From Anaerorhabdus furcosa (GTDB taxonomy: Bacteria > Bacillota_I > Bacilli_A > Erysipelotrichales > Erysipelotrichaceae), in contig NZ_FUWY01000004.1 in the NCBI RefSeq assembly GCF_900167375.1, forward strand, positions 62,001 to 126,000: a stretch of DNA of 64,000 bases, written 5' to 3'. The notes beneath the pieces are model-generated. The model was not told the DNA's origin. It searched no databases and saw only the letters and a program-made list of their open reading frames with translations. Positions 19,070-38,211 of this stretch are shown here, in pieces. Each line of letters opens with the position of its first letter. Position 1 is the first letter of the stretch. Both the position numbers and the translations under genes were made by a program.

Positions 19070-20872
19070 TCACTTATTTGATATTTTATCAACTACTTGA
19101 AGATATTCATCAACCACAATAATATCATCAAAGTAGAAACCATCATATATTTTCCCAAATGGTCCTACTGGTTGAACACGAGTTCCTTTAATCGTTTGTA
19201 GAATATTATTCTCATCCTCTCGATCATATAAATAAACACTTCCACTTATACCACTATTTTGATTCGTCATTGTATCACATTCTTGATATACCACATTGTT
19301 TGATCCACTGCGATCATCGGGTGTTGTATCTAGAGGAATATTATTTAAGGGAATATCAACGTGGACATTATCCATATTTTGTTCAAGCTTATTTTGGGTA
19401 TAATACTCAAGATAAATTAAATCCTCACCATAACGACGAATCAAAGCACAAGAATTAAGTGAAGTGTTGTATACATCCTCTGTTAGATACATCTCATCAT
19501 GCAATATAACATAATCTTGAACGATTTCATTAACATTCTCACTTTGATAATTAAATGAATACAGTTTCTTTTGACCATTTGCATATTCCCTTGTTATTTC
19601 GTAATGATCATTGGTCGAATAAATAAGATCCATCAAAATCTCACCTGATGTTTTATCCACAAAACTAAATGCAATATCACCTTTTAGATATTTACCACCA
19701 TCTTCTTGAATGATTTCTGGTTTACTCATTTTAAATGGTGCTTCATTTAATACTTTTACTCCAAATTCTTGATTATAAATTGTAAAATAATACTCTGTTC
19801 CCTCCGTTGTGTCCAATCGATCTATTTTACGATTCGCAACGTTATTCTTAATTCCTGAACTTGAGCACGAAACTAACATTGAACTTATTAATACGATACC
19901 AATTGTACCCACAATGAAATTTCTACTAAGTTTCTTTACATTTGTATTAAGCAAACCCACGATTCTCTCTTTTACTACAAACTTATTCGAATTGAAATTT
20001 GTCGTCAATGACATATTAAACTTTTCATTTTGATTCTTTAATACATCCAATATCGTGAATCCATATTCTTTTCTATATTCCAATGATTTTTCTCTAAGTA
20101 TCATTTCATCACATGATAATTCTATATCTTTATCCGCTTCCTTATACAATAAAATCATAACTGGATTAAACCAGTAAAGCGAACGAACAAACATAAGAAT
20201 CCATTTGAATAGAACATCTTTTCTTTTATAATGCATTAACTCATGCATACAAATCATTGCGACCTGATCATGTGTCAATGGAATATTAGGAATTACAACA
20301 AATGGCTTTATTATTCCTACTAGCATTGGTGTGCCTAAGTTTTCAATCACATAGATAGGAATTCTTTTCTTAATCCCCATAGAGTCTTGTAGATTATTGA
20401 ACAAATTTATCAACGCTATGCTTGGTTTTTTATAATTTCTCTTCAACTTCTTTATATCATAATAATACGTCCCTATTCGAATTATAATTAATAATCCAGA
20501 AATAATTAAGCTAATGATTAAACCAATTTCAATAAAGCTAATTTCTCTCCCACTTTTCGCTAATGTATCCGCATCTTCAAAAGAATTAACAACTTCATAT
20601 TTTGTAGAAATCCTATTATCTAATTTAACTTGATTAAATTCATTTGTTTCACCAATATAGATTACTGGTAAATTGGGTTGTTCAATTTTAATGGAAGTAG
20701 GTAAAGAAAAATTGAATGGTATGATTAAACGTATTGCGATAGCATACCACAATAAATATCTAACATTAAATCCATATTTATTTTTCGTAATTTTTTTAAT
20801 TACACTTAAAACTACAATGCATAGTGACATTGTAAGCATAACCTCTAAAATCATCTTTACCATACTTTCCAT
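19070..20872 (-). CDS. M56-family (BlaR1-like) membrane metallopeptidase, third copy
   Basis: A 600-residue receptor-protease. N-terminal membrane helices lead to a cytosolic zinc protease with HELMHYKRKD (HEXXH) and the third-ligand/CDE region DIELSCDEMIL. A last helix follows (about residues 315-338), which ends in a lipobox-like LVSC, and then an extracellular region of about 260 residues. In the BlaR1 family, ligand binding outside triggers the protease, which inactivates the BlaI repressor. The extracellular part shows no penicillin-binding motifs and resembles that of the middle copy (NRKID and QEDGGKYLKGDI segments). The ATG at 20872 was preferred over a TTG at 20884 because GGAG then sits at normal spacing. 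Ligand unknown. Confidence 0.87.
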   Translation of the reverse strand: MESMVKMILEVMLTMSLCIVVLSVIKKITKNKYGFNVRYLLWYAIAIRLIIPFNFSLPTSIKIEQPNLPVIYIGETNEFNQVKLDNRISTKYEVVNSFEDADTLAKSGREISFIEIGLIISLIISGLLIIIRIGTYYYDIKKLKRNYKKPSIALINLFNNLQDSMGIKKRIPIYVIENLGTPMLVGIIKPFVVIPNIPLTHDQVAMICMHELMHYKRKDVLFKWILMFVRSLYWFNPVMILLYKEADKDIELSCDEMILREKSLEYRKEYGFTILDVLKNQNEKFNMSLTTNFNSNKFVVKERIVGLLNTNVKKLSRNFIVGTIGIVLISSMLVSCSSSGIKNNVANRKIDRLDTTEGTEYYFTIYNQEFGVKVLNEAPFKMSKPEIIQEDGGKYLKGDIAFSFVDKTSGEILMDLIYSTNDHYEITREYANGQKKLYSFNYQSENVNEIVQDYVILHDEMYLTEDVYNTSLNSCALIRRYGEDLIYLEYYTQNKLEQNMDNVHVDIPLNNIPLDTTPDDRSGSNNVVYQECDTMTNQNSGISGSVYLYDREDENNILQTIKGTRVQPVGPFGKIYDGFYFDDIIVVDEYLQVVDKISNK

Positions 20873-20884
20873 AAATTTCTCCAA

Positions 20885-21331
20885 CTATTTAATCTTGATA
20901 TCTAATCTATCCAATAAATCACTTCTTCTTTGATCTGTCCCTGGAAGTGTCATATACCCTATTTTATATTCTCCAACCTCTTTATACAACTCATGATATT
21001 TTGGAAGTTCTTGTTTGGTAATTGTTACATTAGCTCCTAAGGATTTATCCTCGTCATCAATAATAAAGAGTACTAAATCACCCGCTTGTGCCAATGTAAA
21101 CATGCTATTTTCATTGTACTCCGATATTTCAAGGATATTATCTAAATGAATTGAATCATCATTTCTTATCGTAATCACCACTTCACTCTCATTGAAGTCA
21201 TATACAACTCTATCATTGTATGTTCTCATTTTCAAATTATCACTAAATACTTCGGTTACATATTTTTCTTTTGTACAGCCAGTAAGTAATAGCAAAGTAA
21301 TAACACAAATAAATATGTTTCTTATTCTCAT
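20885..21331 (-). CDS. Small lipoprotein of unknown function within the M56 operon
   Basis: A 148-residue predicted lipoprotein. The signal peptide begins MRIRNIFICVITLLLL and the lipobox is LTGC (Cys19). The mature part is acidic and beta-rich, and no known family is recognised. It lies between the second and third M56 genes, with 14 bases upstream and 12 bases downstream, so it is co-transcribed. An outer-face lipoprotein next to membrane receptors could be a ligand-presenting or sensor accessory protein; that is inference. A good AGAGGAG ribosome site precedes the ATG. Confidence 0.75.
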   Translation of the reverse strand: MRIRNIFICVITLLLLTGCTKEKYVTEVFSDNLKMRTYNDRVVYDFNESEVVITIRNDDSIHLDNILEISEYNENSMFTLAQAGDLVLFIIDDEDKSLGANVTITKQELPKYHELYKEVGEYKIGYMTLPGTDQRRSDLLDRLDIKIK

Positions 21332-21345
21332 AAACTCCTCTTAAT

Positions 21346-22386
21346 CTATTGCACTTCATCCAAATAATTCAAATATTTTTCAGGAAGCATACTTTTATCA
21401 TCATTAATGTGAATTTCATTAATGGTAACACCCTCAATTAAAATATCAAATGGACCTAACAAACTATACTCTTGTGCCACAATCATTGATTTTATTTCAT
21501 CAATGGAATGTCCATTCTTGTAGATTGCACTAACTGTACTTTGATAGCTTGTACCAGGATCATCTAAAGAGAACATTTTCATAAACTTCATATGGGATTT
21601 TTGATCACCAAAAACGATTTTCATCGTTTCTTCACTATCATCAAACACATAACTAGTTAATCCTCTACTCTCTAAATTCTTCGAGATATTTGTATAAGTG
21701 TAAGGATAGATTGAAGAAGTATAAACTCTTATATCCGCAAACTCTTGATTTACATCAGTTAAAACGATACATACGTTAATCTTTGACAACAACTCATTAT
21801 CCGTTAGATCGTTGATAATCATAGAATCTTTTAGTTGTTGGTTGATTTGAGTTGAAGTCGTTTTAAGTAGTAAAGTTATACCCTGATTATAATCACTATA
21901 AATTGGCGTGTAGTTCTCATAATTGGACACATCTGATTTTGGGAAAACAATCTCGTTAACTACTTCCTTTGAACTCGAATCTAAAACAGGAATAACAATA
22001 TCTCCCTTAATATAGGGCTTACTATCTTCTTGAACAACCCAAGGTGTATCAAATGATACAGGCGAATTATCAAGTAACTTAATTTTTATTTCTTTCGTAT
22101 AAATTTGAAAAATATATTCTACTCCATCCTCTACAGAAACGATATCAATCTTTCGATTAGGAACTTTATTCAAAACTAAATTACTATTTACTGTGCAGGA
22201 TACAAGTGTAGATGATAGTAAAATCGTCAATAATGAAATGATAAATATTTTTGAATCTGATTTCTTATTTGTAATGTCGAAAAGTTTATTGAATCTTTCA
22301 TTTAATCCTGATCTTCTTGTACTAAACTCAGTAGTTAATGAGCTTTGATTATTAATCGATTTTCTTTTAATCATACTTAACATCAC
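21346..22386 (-). CDS. C-terminal half of the second M56 gene (interrupted)
   Basis: This frame holds the rest of a BlaR1-like receptor whose N-terminal half is encoded just upstream in another frame. It begins around RKSINNQSSLTTEFSTRRSG, which aligns with the post-protease segment of the intact copies (the sequence after their SCDE-EYRK motif). It then has one membrane helix (KIFIISLLTILLSSTLVSC, again with a lipobox-like LVSC) and an extracellular domain closely related to that of the third copy. The GTG at 22386 or ATGs at 22383 and 22374 could start it independently, since GGAGAGG lies at 22386-22392 and the upstream stop overlaps (TGATG). See the A8 slippery site for how one fusion protein could still be made. 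Confidence 0.7.
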   Translation of the reverse strand: MMLSMIKRKSINNQSSLTTEFSTRRSGLNERFNKLFDITNKKSDSKIFIISLLTILLSSTLVSCTVNSNLVLNKVPNRKIDIVSVEDGVEYIFQIYTKEIKIKLLDNSPVSFDTPWVVQEDSKPYIKGDIVIPVLDSSSKEVVNEIVFPKSDVSNYENYTPIYSDYNQGITLLLKTTSTQINQQLKDSMIINDLTDNELLSKINVCIVLTDVNQEFADIRVYTSSIYPYTYTNISKNLESRGLTSYVFDDSEETMKIVFGDQKSHMKFMKMFSLDDPGTSYQSTVSAIYKNGHSIDEIKSMIVAQEYSLLGPFDILIEGVTINEIHINDDKSMLPEKYLNYLDEVQ

Positions 22387-23162
22387 CTCTCCATTTTTTT
22401 TCTATATTCGATTGTTGTATTATTCAATAACATTTCATCACATGATATTTCCATATCATTGCACGCTCTTTTGTTCATATACCACAATAACGGATTAAAC
22501 CAATAAATACTTCTACATAGCATAAGTAACCATTTCGCAAGAATATCTTTACGCTTGTAATGAATAAGTTCATGTTTGAGAACCATATACAATGCCTCAT
22601 CATCTAATTCAATGTTAGGAATAAGTATCATCGGGTGAAATAGTCCTACTAGCATTGGCGAATCAAGTTCATCTACAACGTAAATTTCAATTTGCTGATA
22701 ACCTTCCTGAATTACAATATCATTCAAGTATGACTGAATTTGATTATCATGAAATCTAAGACTTTTAACTTTTCTCAAGAAGTTGAAGTAAGTAATAAAA
22801 CTATAGCCTATTAAACTACAACCGATGATAATCCAAGCCCCAAATATAAATAACATTGGATTTGTTGAATTATTTTGCGGGATAATTGTTATTTCACTAC
22901 CATTTTCCTGTGGTATTACATATGCCCCAGACATTTCATAAACAGGATACTTTTGTTCTTGATAAATGGATTTCACTTCAACTGGATGACTAATATTGAA
23001 ATTAATTGGAATCAGAATTCGAATAGCAACAGCTACCCAAAGAAAATAAATAAACCGTGTACTATATTTTCTTTTTAAATATGGACTAACAAATATGACA
23101 AGAATAATAACAATTGACATCGTAATCATAATTTCCGAAATAACCATTACTAACTCGTCCAT
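22383..23162 (-). CDS. N-terminal half of the second M56 gene (protease domain, interrupted)
   Basis: A 259-residue frame with four membrane helices and the M56 zinc protease core: HELIHYKRKD (HEXXH), a WFNP motif, and DMEISCDEMLL. It stops at MER* directly after EYRKK, where the intact neighbours continue with YGYTILQVL or YGFTILDVL. Reading one extra A in the preceding A8 run continues as EYRKKNGEVMLSMIKRK, matching the paralogues in register. So this is either a frameshifted pseudogene, a sequencing slip, or a gene that relies on slippage. The start ATG has GAGGGTG upstream, 12 bases after the first M56 gene. Confidence 0.8.
   Translation of the reverse strand: MDELVMVISEIMITMSIVIILVIFVSPYLKRKYSTRFIYFLWVAVAIRILIPINFNISHPVEVKSIYQEQKYPVYEMSGAYVIPQENGSEITIIPQNNSTNPMLFIFGAWIIIGCSLIGYSFITYFNFLRKVKSLRFHDNQIQSYLNDIVIQEGYQQIEIYVVDELDSPMLVGLFHPMILIPNIELDDEALYMVLKHELIHYKRKDILAKWLLMLCRSIYWFNPLLWYMNKRACNDMEISCDEMLLNNTTIEYRKKMER
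22394..22401 (-). other. A8 homopolymer / candidate slippery site inside the second M56 gene
   Basis: On the minus strand the codons read AGA-AAA-AAA-ATG, so the heptamer A_AAA_AAA is in the phase used by -1 programmed frameshift sites. A -1 shift, or one extra A by polymerase slippage, joins the two halves exactly at the homologous position. Without a shift, translation stops nine bases later at TGA, which overlaps an ATG preceded by GGAGAGG. Confidence 0.6.
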
Positions 23163-23173
23163 GTTTGCACCCT

Positions 23174-25417
23174 CTATCTTTCTCTAAATTCTATTTTGTC
23201 CTTTAAGAATTCTTGTTGTGAATAATATTCATTCCGTTCATTCTCACCTAAAACGATACTCATATCACCCCTACTTTCAATAATTCTATATCCATTGGAA
23301 AATTCTTTTACTAAATTGGAATCATAGTGATCAGAATCACAACACGAATAACCTTCATTAAAACCTTTTGATATGATAAATTCATAAATATCTTCATCAT
23401 TACCAGGATATTCAACACCTTTGAAGTAAACTCCAAATATGCCATTTTTTCCATATTGCCCAACTAAAATTCTATCAGTTACATCATCTGGAATAATGAT
23501 TTCTATGAAGTCATAATCACCTTGTAAGCGATATACTCTTTTACCTTCATCATTAAGTACATAATCTAAATATTGATTATTTGGATATCCTGGCCATTTT
23601 TCAAATTCACTTGGTTGATTAAACTCTGAATCTATATAGACATTGTCAACTTTAATATTTTGTTTCTCATGCAATTGATTAAATATTTCAAATTCCATGT
23701 TTTCTATTGTTTCTTTCACTTTTTCTAAACTATCACCATTTAGTGTAACAAATGACCTTAAAGATTGTGCATTTCTTCCATTAGCATTTAAATTACATTT
23801 TTTAAACAAATCTCCTTCAAAATCAAAATATTGTTCGAATGGTGCACGCTCATATACTGTATTTAAAGCATCAAAACTAAAATTAAAATCAACATTTTTG
23901 GTACGAAAATCACTTGGGTAACTGTATAAAATACTAATATACGCATTATCCTTATCTCCAGGTACAATAACTGCACAGCTTTCAATTTCTTTTATCGCAC
24001 GATTTAGTGAAATATCTTCACCTTGAGCTTTAAATATAATATTTCCAAATACTTTATCTACATTTTCTTGTGTCATTTCGTAGCTTTTATAACTACTTAT
24101 ACTTCCGTTATCACCATAAATAAGACCATCATAATCTTGTATATAGTCAAATGTTTTAGCTACTATAAAACTTGTAATTTCTTCTTTGGACTCGCTATCA
24201 ACTATACTAATAAATTGACTTCCAATTGCTTCTGATTCTTCGATTCCATGTAGATTATCATTCGTTATTTCTTCTACAAGTGCAAATTCAATGGGTCCAT
24301 CTTTTCGATAGCTTAATGTCAACGTATTATCATAAAATTCATAAATCATTTCTTGTTCTGTTTCGATTAAAGTAACTGATTCATTGATGGCTGTGGTTGT
24401 TTCTTTATATACACTTTTACTACAAGAGACTAATGTAGAAGCAATGATTGTAAGTATCAATGATACTAGTACTATTTTCTTACCACTTGATTTCTTTTTC
24501 ATATCAATCAAGTTCAATAATCTTTCTTTCACTGTTTTCTTTTCCTGGTTAAAACGAGTTGAAAGTACAGTACTACTTTTAATCGCTTGATTTTGTAATA
24601 CTTGAAGTATTGTATATCCATATTCTTTACGATATTCTAGATTCTTGTTTCTCAATACAATTTCATCACAAGAGAATTCTATGTCTTTATCTGCATCACG
24701 CATCATGACATAAACAAATGGATTAAACCAATGGATACAACTTGCGACCATTAATAACCACTTGAACAAAATATCATGCCTTTGAAAATGAACGACTTCA
24801 TGTTTTAAAATCATTTTCAATTGAGTATCACTTAATTCTAATGTATTCAAAACTATCTTAGGATGGATGAGTCCAATCAATAATGGACTGGATAAACACT
24901 TACTTTCCATAATTTGCAATCGTTCATCTTTAAATAATGAATTAAATATTGATTCCGTATGAGCATTTACAGGTTGTTGGCTTCTTTTTATCAAACGAGA
25001 AAATTTAAAGTAATTAACTAATTGATGGATAAGTGAAGTACTGCATCCAATTAGCCAAACAATGAAAAGAATTGTATAAATAGATACTTCTTTATTAACA
25101 CTGGCTTCTTCCGTTTTAACACTAACATATTTTGTATATTCTGAACTAGTTTCAGCAACTGGATTACTTTGATTATTAAGATTCGGATTAAATACTGGGG
25201 TATAGTTTATATTTTGGTTGGGTAACTCTATTGTTACGGAGTTGGGAAGTGAGATGTTAAATGGTAAGATTAATCGAATGGCAATAAATAACCACATAAC
25301 ATATCGAACAGTAGTTGCATATCTTTTCTTTGCTAGAGGTTTTGTTAGCATCATGAGAATGATAAGCACAGCCATTGTTACTGATACTTCAAATAATGTT
25401 AATATCCCCTTCTCCAT
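23174..25417 (-). CDS. M56-family (BlaR1-like) membrane metallopeptidase, first copy
   Basis: A 747-residue receptor-protease, the longest of the three. Four N-terminal helices enclose the cytosolic zinc protease HEVVHFQRHD (HEXXH) with DIEFSCDEIVL. A final helix (about residues 320-337, ending STLVSC) leads to an extracellular region of about 410 residues, larger than and different from those of the other copies. It follows the BlaI-type repressor by 2 bases, the normal partner arrangement. The tail contains a CC pair (GYSCCDSDH) that could form or exchange a disulfide. There is no Ser-x-x-Lys penicillin-binding arrangement that I can identify, so beta-lactam sensing is not supported. Ligand unknown. 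Confidence 0.87.
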   Translation of the reverse strand: MEKGILTLFEVSVTMAVLIILMMLTKPLAKKRYATTVRYVMWLFIAIRLILPFNISLPNSVTIELPNQNINYTPVFNPNLNNQSNPVAETSSEYTKYVSVKTEEASVNKEVSIYTILFIVWLIGCSTSLIHQLVNYFKFSRLIKRSQQPVNAHTESIFNSLFKDERLQIMESKCLSSPLLIGLIHPKIVLNTLELSDTQLKMILKHEVVHFQRHDILFKWLLMVASCIHWFNPFVYVMMRDADKDIEFSCDEIVLRNKNLEYRKEYGYTILQVLQNQAIKSSTVLSTRFNQEKKTVKERLLNLIDMKKKSSGKKIVLVSLILTIIASTLVSCSKSVYKETTTAINESVTLIETEQEMIYEFYDNTLTLSYRKDGPIEFALVEEITNDNLHGIEESEAIGSQFISIVDSESKEEITSFIVAKTFDYIQDYDGLIYGDNGSISSYKSYEMTQENVDKVFGNIIFKAQGEDISLNRAIKEIESCAVIVPGDKDNAYISILYSYPSDFRTKNVDFNFSFDALNTVYERAPFEQYFDFEGDLFKKCNLNANGRNAQSLRSFVTLNGDSLEKVKETIENMEFEIFNQLHEKQNIKVDNVYIDSEFNQPSEFEKWPGYPNNQYLDYVLNDEGKRVYRLQGDYDFIEIIIPDDVTDRILVGQYGKNGIFGVYFKGVEYPGNDEDIYEFIISKGFNEGYSCCDSDHYDSNLVKEFSNGYRIIESRGDMSIVLGENERNEYYSQQEFLKDKIEFRER

Positions 25418-25419
25418 TT

Positions 25420-25785
25420 TTACTTACCTGCTTTCTTTAAAATTTCCTCAAGTTCATCAATATCTGATTTAGTTAGTTTTGTTGAATCAATTAATGATGT
25501 AACTAAACTTTTCATTGAATTATTATGTACTTTGTTTAAAAACCATACAGTTTCTTGAGATTTATATTCATTTTCCTTAACAAGTGGTTGATAGTATTTA
25601 ATTCTTCCATCTTTTTCCAAAGTTACAAATTTTCTTTCAAGTAGCCTTGCTAAAAGTGCCTGAATCGTAGACATAGTCCAATTGTTTTGTTTGCAAAACT
25701 CTGCAATTTCACTTGTCTTTAATGGTCTATCCTCTCGCCACAATACATTCATTATTTCTAATTCTGCCTCTGGTAATTTTTTCAT
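25420..25785 (-). CDS. blaI: BlaI/MecI-family transcriptional repressor
   Basis: A 121-residue winged-helix repressor. The N-terminus KLPEAELEIMNVLW followed by the recognition region WTMSTIQALLARLLERKFV is the family hallmark. The C-terminal dimerisation helix contains the region cleaved by the cognate M56 protease (around FLNKVHNNSMKSLV, about residues 83-96). Such repressors bind dyads of the form TACANNTGTA and are inactivated when the receptor is triggered. Two such dyads overlap its own promoter, indicating autoregulation. First gene of the blaI-M56-M56-lipoprotein-M56 operon. Confidence 0.93.
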   Translation of the reverse strand: MKKLPEAELEIMNVLWREDRPLKTSEIAEFCKQNNWTMSTIQALLARLLERKFVTLEKDGRIKYYQPLVKENEYKSQETVWFLNKVHNNSMKSLVTSLIDSTKLTKSDIDELEEILKKAGK

Positions 25786-25805
25786 CGTTATGCCTCTCCT
25801 ATATT

Positions 25806-25849
25806 TACATTTGTCAATTTCATTATATCGTTATATCTACAATTGTCAA
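25806..25849 (-). promoter_or_regulatory. Autoregulated promoter of the blaI/M56 operon with two BlaI boxes
   Basis: Minus-strand TTGACA (25844-25849), 16-bp spacer, TATAAT (25822-25827). Box 1, TCTACAATTGTCAA on the plus strand (core 25838-25847), overlaps the -35. Box 2, TTTACATTTGTCAA (core 25806-25815), lies at about +10. The boxes differ at only two of 14 positions and are 32 bp apart centre to centre, i.e. three helical turns. Confidence 0.8.
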
Positions 25850-35888: not shown

Positions 35889-36569
35889 CTATCCAATATC
35901 AATTAATTTACCTTCTTGTAAAAAGACACGATAATCTGATAATTTAGAAACTTCATTGCTATGTGTTACAACAATAACTGTTTTATTAAACTTTTCAGTT
36001 AACATTCTAAAGATTTGAATAATTTCTCTCTCTGTTGCAGTATCCAAGTTTCCTGTTGGCTCATCCGCAAAGATTAAGTCTACGTTTGCCGCAAGTGCCC
36101 TAGCAATTGCGATACGTTGTTGTTCACCACCAGATAAATGAGTAACAAGTCGATTTGCTTTGGATTTGGTAATCCCAAACTTTTCAAGTAATGCATAACC
36201 AACTTCCTTTTGATTCTCTGGAATTTCATTATCTGTTTCAGCCATTGCTAGTTCAATATTCTCAATTCCTGTTAAATATTGAACTAAATTATATGCTTGA
36301 AAAACTACACCTATTTTATTTCTACGATACTTATATAATCCAATTTCTTTCAAATCCTTATTTTGAAAATAAATTGTCCCACTCTCTTGTGTATCGAGTC
36401 CAGCAAGAATACTAAGTAATGTTGTTTTTCCACTACCTGAGGGTCCTAAAATTGTATAGAACTTCCCTTCTTTAAACTCATAACTTAAATCAGTTAATAT
36501 TTCTCTTCTAAATCCACCATCAACATAGCCATAATTGATATGTTCAATTTTTAATATTGTGTTCATCAT
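35889..36569 (-). CDS. ABC transporter ATP-binding protein (MacB/LolD type)
   Basis: A 226-residue ATPase: Walker A GPSGSGKTTLL (about residue 43), Q-loop VVFQAYNLVQ, signature LSGGEQQRIAIARALA, Walker B LIFADEPTGNLD, and switch His in VVTHSNE. These sequence features place it with the MacB/LolD/FtsE group whose partners are FtsX-like permeases. The second of two adjacent ATGs (36566) has the better spacing from AGGAGG. It follows the permease gene by 6 bases and is transcribed from the same BlaI-boxed promoter. Confidence 0.92.
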   Translation of the reverse strand: MMNTILKIEHINYGYVDGGFRREILTDLSYEFKEGKFYTILGPSGSGKTTLLSILAGLDTQESGTIYFQNKDLKEIGLYKYRRNKIGVVFQAYNLVQYLTGIENIELAMAETDNEIPENQKEVGYALLEKFGITKSKANRLVTHLSGGEQQRIAIARALAANVDLIFADEPTGNLDTATEREIIQIFRMLTEKFNKTVIVVTHSNEVSKLSDYRVFLQEGKLIDIG

Positions 36570-36575
36570 TACCTC

Positions 36576-38138
36576 CTATGAAAGCATAATTCGCTTCGGG
36601 CTAAGCTTCATAATCATATAAGTTGGTACAAGAATACTAATAAACACGATACCTATTCCAAACAAATATATTTGTAGTATTAGTATTGGATTAATTATAA
36701 CTTTGTATCGACTTAGCATATCTTCTTGCGTTATCTCGGTGAAGTATTCTTTATAACCAACCCAATTTGGTTTAAAATTCTCTTCTTGTACAATTTCAGG
36801 TTCAATTGCAACTTGATTTTCCAAGACTTGTTGACCCACTTTTCCAGCTACCATGCTTCCAGTAACCACCGCACAAGTAAAGGATACAAGCAAAATTATC
36901 AATAGTTCAACGAAGAACTGCAATACAATTTTTATACGGCTTACACCTAATGATAAGAGAACACCAATCTCAAATTCACGTGACTTTAATGTAAGTGCTG
37001 TGATGAGTGTAATAATAAATATTGCAGTTATTGAAATAATCAATAAGATAACATCTGCAAAATAAGTTAAGTTATCTAGCGGTCTTGAAAATTGATCAAA
37101 CTGTTTATTATTAGCATCGAAATAAATATATTCTGTTTCAATATTTTTATAATCATCCATAAAACTCTCAATTTTTAAAGGATCGTCTAATAAGATGTTT
37201 ACCTTACTCGTATTCAACATTTGTTGCTTTATATCTTCAAGTGGAATTTCATTTACATTAGTGCCCATCCCACTATTTCCGTATTGATTAAATAATTCAT
37301 ACTGCACTAATTCTCCTTCGATTAGAGTTATTAGTGGTACATAAACATTATTTTTAGGATTTTCACTCCCTGTTATATAGGCAATACGTACACTTGTCAT
37401 ATCGACTTCTTCAATGGTCGTATAGATTCCAATAATTTCAAATTCTCTGTTTAAATCATCTCGCTTTAGTCCATTTAACTCCATGCTTTGAATGATTTCT
37501 TCTGTTCCTGCTCGAAACGAAATTTTATCACCTAAAGTAAATCCATTGATGTCAGCAACATCTTTTGAAATTACAGCTACAAGATTTGCATTCTCAATAT
37601 CATTTTGATTAAAAAATCTACCTTCTACCAGTGTACATGTACCATCATGAAACTCAATCATTTCTGGGTACAAATTACCGATCAACATAAAATTTGGTTG
37701 AAGGTAACTATTTTCTATTGAGGCACCATTGGGATTAAAAGAATCTTCTCTAAATTCTTCATTTCCAATTAATACGCTATCAAATCCCAAGGAGAATGTT
37801 TGTCTTGAAGACAAATAATTAGCTGCTTTGATTCTTTTATCCTTTAATACATCCTTCACTGTATCAATACCAATTACTGGTGAATTTTCATAGGCAGCAT
37901 TTTTTTCCTCTTCTGATTCTAAACTATCTATATATGCTGAGTGTTTCTGATAATCGACATTTAAGTTTACCACTGCTTTCATACTAAGACGTGTCATCGT
38001 TTTAGCATTTGACGCTGCTTGTGTAATACCTAATCCAATTAATACAAGATTTCCTATTGCAAAAAAAGTTAATCCTAATAAGATTGATTTGGATAGTTTT
38101 CTAGTAACATACAACCATGCTCTTCTAATATAGTTCAT
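36576..38138 (-). CDS. FtsX-like/MacB-type ABC transporter permease
   Basis: A 520-residue permease: one N-terminal helix (about residues 18-40), a large extracellular MacB-type periplasmic-core domain (about residues 45-345), and three C-terminal helices (about 350-385, 400-432, 485-515) with the FtsX segment SREFEIGVLLSLGVSRIKIVLQF split around ISLGVSR. MacB-type pumps do mechanotransmission rather than classical transport. Firmicute versions commonly handle antimicrobial peptides, lantibiotics or lipoprotein cargo. The substrate is unknown here. The -35 box overlaps a BlaI-type operator, linking it to the M56 system. Confidence 0.88.
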   Translation of the reverse strand: MNYIRRAWLYVTRKLSKSILLGLTFFAIGNLVLIGLGITQAASNAKTMTRLSMKAVVNLNVDYQKHSAYIDSLESEEEKNAAYENSPVIGIDTVKDVLKDKRIKAANYLSSRQTFSLGFDSVLIGNEEFREDSFNPNGASIENSYLQPNFMLIGNLYPEMIEFHDGTCTLVEGRFFNQNDIENANLVAVISKDVADINGFTLGDKISFRAGTEEIIQSMELNGLKRDDLNREFEIIGIYTTIEEVDMTSVRIAYITGSENPKNNVYVPLITLIEGELVQYELFNQYGNSGMGTNVNEIPLEDIKQQMLNTSKVNILLDDPLKIESFMDDYKNIETEYIYFDANNKQFDQFSRPLDNLTYFADVILLIISITAIFIITLITALTLKSREFEIGVLLSLGVSRIKIVLQFFVELLIILLVSFTCAVVTGSMVAGKVGQQVLENQVAIEPEIVQEENFKPNWVGYKEYFTEITQEDMLSRYKVIINPILILQIYLFGIGIVFISILVPTYMIMKLSPKRIMLS

Positions 38139-38182
38139 AGTTTATTTCCTTTCCAGTACCTTAGTCTATTAGTGTCGACTCA

Positions 38183-38211
38183 ATCATATATCACCGCTCT
38201 ACATTTGTCAA
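38183..38211 (-). promoter_or_regulatory. Promoter of the ABC transporter with a BlaI-type box
   Basis: Minus-strand TTGACA (38206-38211), 17-bp spacer, TATGAT (38183-38188). The plus-strand sequence TCTACATTTGTCAA (38198-38211) overlaps the -35 and matches each of the two boxes at the blaI promoter in 13 of 14 positions. Confidence 0.75.

Follow-up and report, generated by a model that had tools for sequence, protein, structure and literature searches.

BlaI dimers that sit on the -35 and the start region keep RNA polymerase away, and the activated M56 receptor brings about the cleavage of BlaI. In a DAP-seq study of C. thermocellum, BlaI_0696 bound three promoters, of which two lie outside its own operon; all three carry two dyads, and a lone site was held to be insufficient (PMC8457756). 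The biochemically defined operator of the CopY family is RNYKACANNTGTMRNY, and the two operators of CopY/CopR promoters are commonly 24-39 bases apart (PMC7253601). M56/BlaI pairs that lack a beta-lactam sensor occur commonly in Erysipelotrichaceae; we found no paper that names what such pairs sense or control, and searches of open-access literature gave no described case of an ABC transporter controlled by BlaI and M56 proteins.

The DNA analysed here, a 64-kb stretch of the Anaerorhabdus furcosa genome (the window), holds a blaI operon and, with its operator-like box 12 kb from the blaI gene, an ABC transporter which, judging by its promoter sequence, is very probably under BlaI control. The two promoters contain the following elements:

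25822..25849, minus strand: blaI promoter, TTGACA-16-TATAAT
25836..25849, minus strand: blaI promoter, BlaI box 1, TTGACAATTGTAGA, spanning the -35
25804..25817, minus strand: blaI promoter, BlaI box 2, TTGACAAATGTAAA, 32 bp away from box 1 and located at the predicted start of transcription
38183..38211, minus strand: sigma-70-type transporter promoter, -35 TTGACA at 38206-38211, 17 bp, -10 TATGAT at 38183-38188
38198..38211, minus strand: BlaI box 1 of the transporter promoter, predicted operator, TTGACAAATGTAGA on the minus strand, spanning the -35
38165..38178, minus strand: transporter promoter, BlaI box 2 (degenerate), TCGACACTAATAGA, located at the predicted start of transcription

The three 14-mers on which the earlier note had based its proposal are all present, namely TTTACATTTGTCAA at 25804-25817, TCTACAATTGTCAA at 25836-25849 and TCTACATTTGTCAA at 38198-38211, and the same three sites are the only matches to TNTACANNTGTCAA in the window. 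Its placement of the -35 within two of them is also correct: on the minus strand, the -35 lies inside 25836-25849 for blaI and inside 38198-38211 for the permease, while 25804-25817 coincides with the predicted blaI start or lies immediately behind it. Written along the coding (minus) strand, the sequence is TTGACA-ATTGTAGATATAACGA-TATAAT-GAAATTGACAAATGTAAA at the blaI promoter and TTGACA-AATGTAGAGCGGTGATA-TATGAT-TGAGTCGACACTAATAGA at the transporter promoter. Compared with RNYKACANNTGTMRNY, both blaI boxes match at 16/16 positions and the transporter box at 15/16. The degenerate transporter box 2 lies exactly 33 bp downstream of box 1, which is the offset used in blaI operons, and agrees with the blaI box at 9/12 informative positions and with RNYKACANNTGTMRNY at 14/16, one half-site being good and the other worn. 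The probability of finding such a site by chance is 0.0006 for one offset and 0.002 for three adjacent offsets; its presence at the right distance makes a chance resemblance of the whole transporter promoter unlikely. The sequence supports the view that the transporter promoter has the layout of the blaI operons, including a degenerate second box at the 33-bp offset.

The genes of the blaI operon are these:

25420..25785, minus strand: BlaI/MecI-family repressor, 121 aa (Pfam PF03965, 4.8e-28)
23174..25417, minus strand: M56 membrane metallopeptidase receptor 1, 747 aa, with an HEVVH motif (PF05569, 1.1e-50)
21346..23162, minus strand: M56 receptor 2, broken by a frameshift in an A run, which leaves the reading frames 22383-23162 and 21346-22386
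20885..21331, minus strand: small putative lipoprotein of the blaI operon, 148 aa, with a lipobox-like LLTGC
19070..20884, minus strand: M56 receptor 3, 604 aa (Pfam PF05569, 5.5e-43)

The repressor matches the structures of MecI (1sd6, 2.4e-17) and BlaI (1sd4) over its full length, with the Penicillinase_R winged-helix domain covering the whole protein, and the TACA/TGTA-type dyads present in its own promoter are conserved in the orthologues. In M56 receptor 1, the residues H206, E207 and H210 are invariant. The frameshift in M56 receptor 2 (window 22383-22400) could reflect a pseudogene, phase variation or a sequencing error, and the family search gave no confident assignment for the 148-aa lipoprotein. 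A penicillin-binding sensor was looked for with Pfam, which finds no transpeptidase domain in the M56 proteins, and the BlaR1 models do not align beyond about residue 340 of the M56 proteins, scoring 130 bits against a cut-off of 400. The M56 proteins are therefore not recognisable beta-lactam sensors.

The boxes were compared with those of Holdemania filiformis, H. massiliensis, a Holdemania sp. and two Erysipelotrichaceae MAGs (G069 and G120), which carry the closest BlaI relatives (46-51% identical), each alongside an M56 gene. The conservation check suggested in the earlier note came out in favour of the blaI boxes, the pair being kept in the orthologous operons of Holdemania and the two MAGs; the blaI/M56 operons of all three Holdemania species and both MAGs have two boxes 33 bp apart with the -10 in between. 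The blaI promoters of Holdemania, G120 and G069 contain TTGACAAATGTAGA, the very 14-mer of the transporter box. Such a box is absent from the related permease promoters in other genera and from both paralogous copies in this genome. When a scoring matrix was made solely from the blaI operator boxes of the other genomes, with the window sites excluded, the three window sites came out on top at 18.5, 18.3 and 18.0 bits, the transporter box being the second best, and the next best site in the window scored 12.3, a gap of 6 bits. These comparisons support the box as a genuine BlaI-family operator. Among 273 family genomes, the two-box pattern marks the blaI/M56 operons of A. furcosa (two), Holdemania (three), G069 and G120, with two matches in the reversed control, and the remaining matches are mostly a different palindrome beside a DUF134-like gene.

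The two-box matches of genus g32 (TTGACATATGTCA pairs) were rejected as belonging to an unrelated regulator; they adjoin a DUF134-like and then a chromate-transporter-like gene, identities that we presume from the sequence. In the same genus, TGACATATGTCA palindrome pairs about 34-36 bp apart lie by the DUF134-like gene (L203-L207), an arrangement resembling another autoregulated system. Holdemania has two ACTACANNTGTAGA-like dyads, spaced by 25 bp (L105 11323-11361, L106 14289-14327, L107 11794-11832), between the blaI-M56 operon and two FemAB genes, which encode peptidoglycan cross-bridge enzymes, and this position suggests that cell-wall genes are under control of the BlaI type. Three Holdemania species also retain one BlaI-like box at the apparent -35 of a gene of the VanW family that is divergent from an M18 aminopeptidase gene (L134 4697, L133 4350, L136 3776). 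At C4:429682-429709 of A. furcosa, the promoter TTGACATCTACAAATTGTAGAATATAAT has between its -35 and -10 a palindrome with a 3-nt spacer, TCTACAAATTGTAGA, which is probably the site of another repressor.

From the sequence of the A. furcosa genome, the BlaI regulon would comprise about five promoters, i.e., those of two blaI/M56 operons, a lipoprotein, a polytopic membrane protein and the transporter, the last being the weakest of the five because of its degenerate box 2. The gene for the 194-aa lipoprotein is preceded by two perfect BlaI boxes 36 bp apart (C4:470206-470255; L098 6207-6256); the family of its product is unassigned, and it weakly resembles the lipoprotein encoded in the Holdemania blaI operon (E 2.6e-4), mostly in the signal peptide and linker. 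Two BlaI-type boxes, the second 37 bp downstream of the first, stand before the gene for a 566-aa polytopic protein (C4:300914-300961; L128 3915-3962) with about ten TM segments and a weak DUF6541 match, and a similar 565-aa protein comes next. The earlier claim that the transporter is the output of the M56 system has to be narrowed: it stands as a candidate BlaI target but not as the sole output, given the lipoprotein, the membrane protein and the second operon.

This second M56-blaI operon (C2:371293-373921; L094 9285-11922) has a reversed gene order, and its promoter carries TTGACAAATGTCGG followed by CTGACAAACGTAAG 33 bp on, so that operator and layout are as in the window. The two BlaI proteins are 53% identical with a similar recognition-helix region, and cross-talk between the C2 operon and the window BlaI is likely on these grounds. 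As the operator is the same, the second repressor may also act on the transporter. The transporter could even be controlled mainly by the C2 BlaI, or by both repressors, which we rate at somewhat less than an even chance and regard as a variant of the main explanation, not exclusive of it. The shared 33-bp layout and the resemblance of the two proteins speak for this variant, whereas the window blaI is 12 kb off, its own boxes are the closest matches, and no sequence feature separates the specificities of the two BlaI proteins. Altogether, four BlaI-type genes were found in the genome, each beside an M56 gene and none CopY-like, and the promoters of the two others are unlike those of the window and C2 copies. 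BlaI-type genes occur in 52/146 family genomes.

The genome-wide tests were pattern searches over the 2.4-Mb genome. The exact palindrome TYKACANNTGTMRA has six sites, found in the blaI promoter (twice), the transporter promoter and the promoters of the 194-aa lipoprotein and the 566-aa membrane protein, with four sites in the reversed control. The genome-wide scan proposed in the earlier note thus gave a divided answer: all six sites lie in four intergenic promoter regions, although non-coding DNA makes up only about 8% of the window, but their number is not clearly above the control. The motif count alone being uninformative, position, layout and relatives were used instead. The concern that the -35 part inflates the matches was examined among the 26 promoters of the form TTGACA-N16-18-TATNAT in the genome; the continuation NNTGTAGA follows in only two of them, those of blaI and the transporter. 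A scan for two dyads, GACANNTGT-N19..30-ACANNTGT, with a GACA start returned three sites, all of them regulon promoters, and none in the control, and with a TACA start the same three sites plus two inside reading frames.

These numbers bear on a second reading, in which the match at the transporter box is accidental, NNTGTAGA standing behind a strong TTGACA -35 by coincidence and BlaI having no regulatory part. About 0.6 sites scoring at least as high as the transporter box are expected per genome, and the exact count of six against four, together with the degenerate state of box 2, leaves this reading some room. We nevertheless consider it unlikely, as only 0.016 such sites are expected per 64 kb, every exact motif falls in promoters, 24 other strong promoters have no box, and a second box stands at the right offset (P about 0.001-0.002). 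That the box belongs to a copper repressor of the CopY type and the transporter is metal-responsive is very improbable: CopY recognises the same KACANNTGTMR core (PMC7253601), but the C-terminal CXC motif occurs in 0/4 of the BlaI-type genes found, all of which lie beside an M56 gene, the window BlaI scores below the cut-off of the curated CopY/TcrY model (78 vs 122 bits), and a MacB/FtsX-type transporter is not a copper ATPase. Control by BlaI is preferred because the relatives have the same boxes, the matrix ranks the transporter box among the blaI sites, only 2/26 promoters carry the continuation, and box 2 occurs at 33 bp; on this evidence, the transporter is very probably a BlaI target.

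The transporter consists of two genes:

36576..38138, minus strand: ABC transporter permease, 520 aa, with Pfam FtsX C-terminal and MacB_PCD domains
35889..36569, minus strand: ABC transporter ATPase, 226 aa, MacB/LolD-like

Four TM segments are predicted in the permease, starting at 19, 363, 408 and 485, with a large loop after TM1, and its family profile matches the FtsX, MacB and LolC structures. By these predictions the pair is of the MacB/LolCDE type (type VII), which combines a four-TM permease whose extracellular domain lies between TM1 and TM2 with a MacB/LolD-like ATPase. The likeness to Bce-type modules drawn in the earlier note survives as an analogy only, the permease with its four predicted TM segments and large loop after TM1 being of the MacB/LolC/FtsX type.

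Beside uvrB on C2 (L093 2973-9403), a gene for a PASTA-domain protein without a kinase is followed by two FtsX/MacB-type permease/ATPase pairs. The window ATPase is 85-87% identical to these two paralogues. For the permease the identity is just 46-50%, and the loop after TM1 is one of its most divergent parts; the window copy has no PASTA neighbour. Permease homologues are present in 48/146 family genomes, and the scan of named genomes found no close ones. In a tree of 38 permeases, the window copy clusters with the C2 copies of its own genome (support 100/99). Its branch measures 1.59 changes per column compared with 0.3-0.5 for its sisters, a length that makes its placement less sure. By these comparisons, the window transporter is a genus-restricted, fast-evolving third copy, and the simplest reading is that a duplicated copy had its extracellular part changed and was brought under BlaI control. 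It would illustrate how a transporter from a widely kept cluster passes through duplication, loss of the PASTA-protein neighbour and inducible control by a repressor.

We propose that BlaI from the window, possibly also its C2 paralogue, occupies the inverted repeat 38198-38211 that spans the -35, the weak second site at 38165-38178 probably assisting, and that the bound repressor would block transcription of the permease/ATPase pair (38138-35889). BlaI would also repress its own operon and with it the three M56 receptors, one of which has a broken frame. An extracellular signal would then activate an M56 receptor, BlaI would be cleaved or released, and the receptors, the lipoprotein, the polytopic membrane protein and the MacB/FtsX-type transporter would be co-expressed as a cell-envelope response. 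In this scheme, repression and proteolytic induction are inferred by analogy with the BlaR1/BlaI family, and that the transporter expels or neutralises an envelope-active compound is a guess. We tentatively hypothesize, with rather more doubt than confidence, a self-contained envelope-stress circuit in which several M56 receptors that do not sense beta-lactams and two BlaI paralogues with one class of operator control a lipoprotein, a polytopic membrane protein and a fast-evolving, lineage-specific MacB-type exporter, a one-step proteolytic counterpart of the two-component/Bce modules.

At the sequence level, the analysis establishes the operator, the promoter layout, a small regulon and the lack of a recognisable beta-lactam sensor domain. 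The defined operator and the five-promoter regulon provide a concrete, testable set of outputs, and the promoters of the transporter and the lipoprotein are possible reporters to screen for the M56 signal.

Among the known systems, BlaR1/BlaI and MecR1/MecI of Staphylococcus and Bacillus licheniformis share with the A. furcosa locus a BlaI-family repressor of about 120 aa, an adjacent M56 receptor with HExxH, and a promoter under autoregulation whose TACA/TGTA dyads lie at the -35 and around the start. Unlike BlaR1 and MecR1, the A. furcosa M56 proteins have no recognised penicillin-binding sensor domain, and the regulon found here includes no gene for a beta-lactamase or PBP2a and has a MacB/FtsX-type transporter as a predicted target. 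BceRS-BceAB is alike in concept, with an envelope sensor driving the expression of an ABC transporter, but the A. furcosa system has no two-component system, and its permease has four predicted TM segments in a MacB topology. In permeases of the BceB type the TM segments number about ten, with a large extracellular domain placed between TM7 and TM8. CopY/CopR shares the operator RNYKACANNTGTMRNY and its pairing, yet it is metal-responsive, has a CXC tail and targets a copper exporter, none of which applies to A. furcosa. In C. thermocellum, the operator is a GTCTAT repeat with a 5-nt gap that differs from the A. furcosa box, and no ABC transporter is described among the distal targets (PMC8457756); its targets have two good dyads each, whereas the A. 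furcosa transporter has one clean and one degenerate. Like the A. furcosa system, BlaI_0696 has a blaI operon, there with two BlaR1-type genes, and a small regulon that includes distal promoters (PMC8457756).
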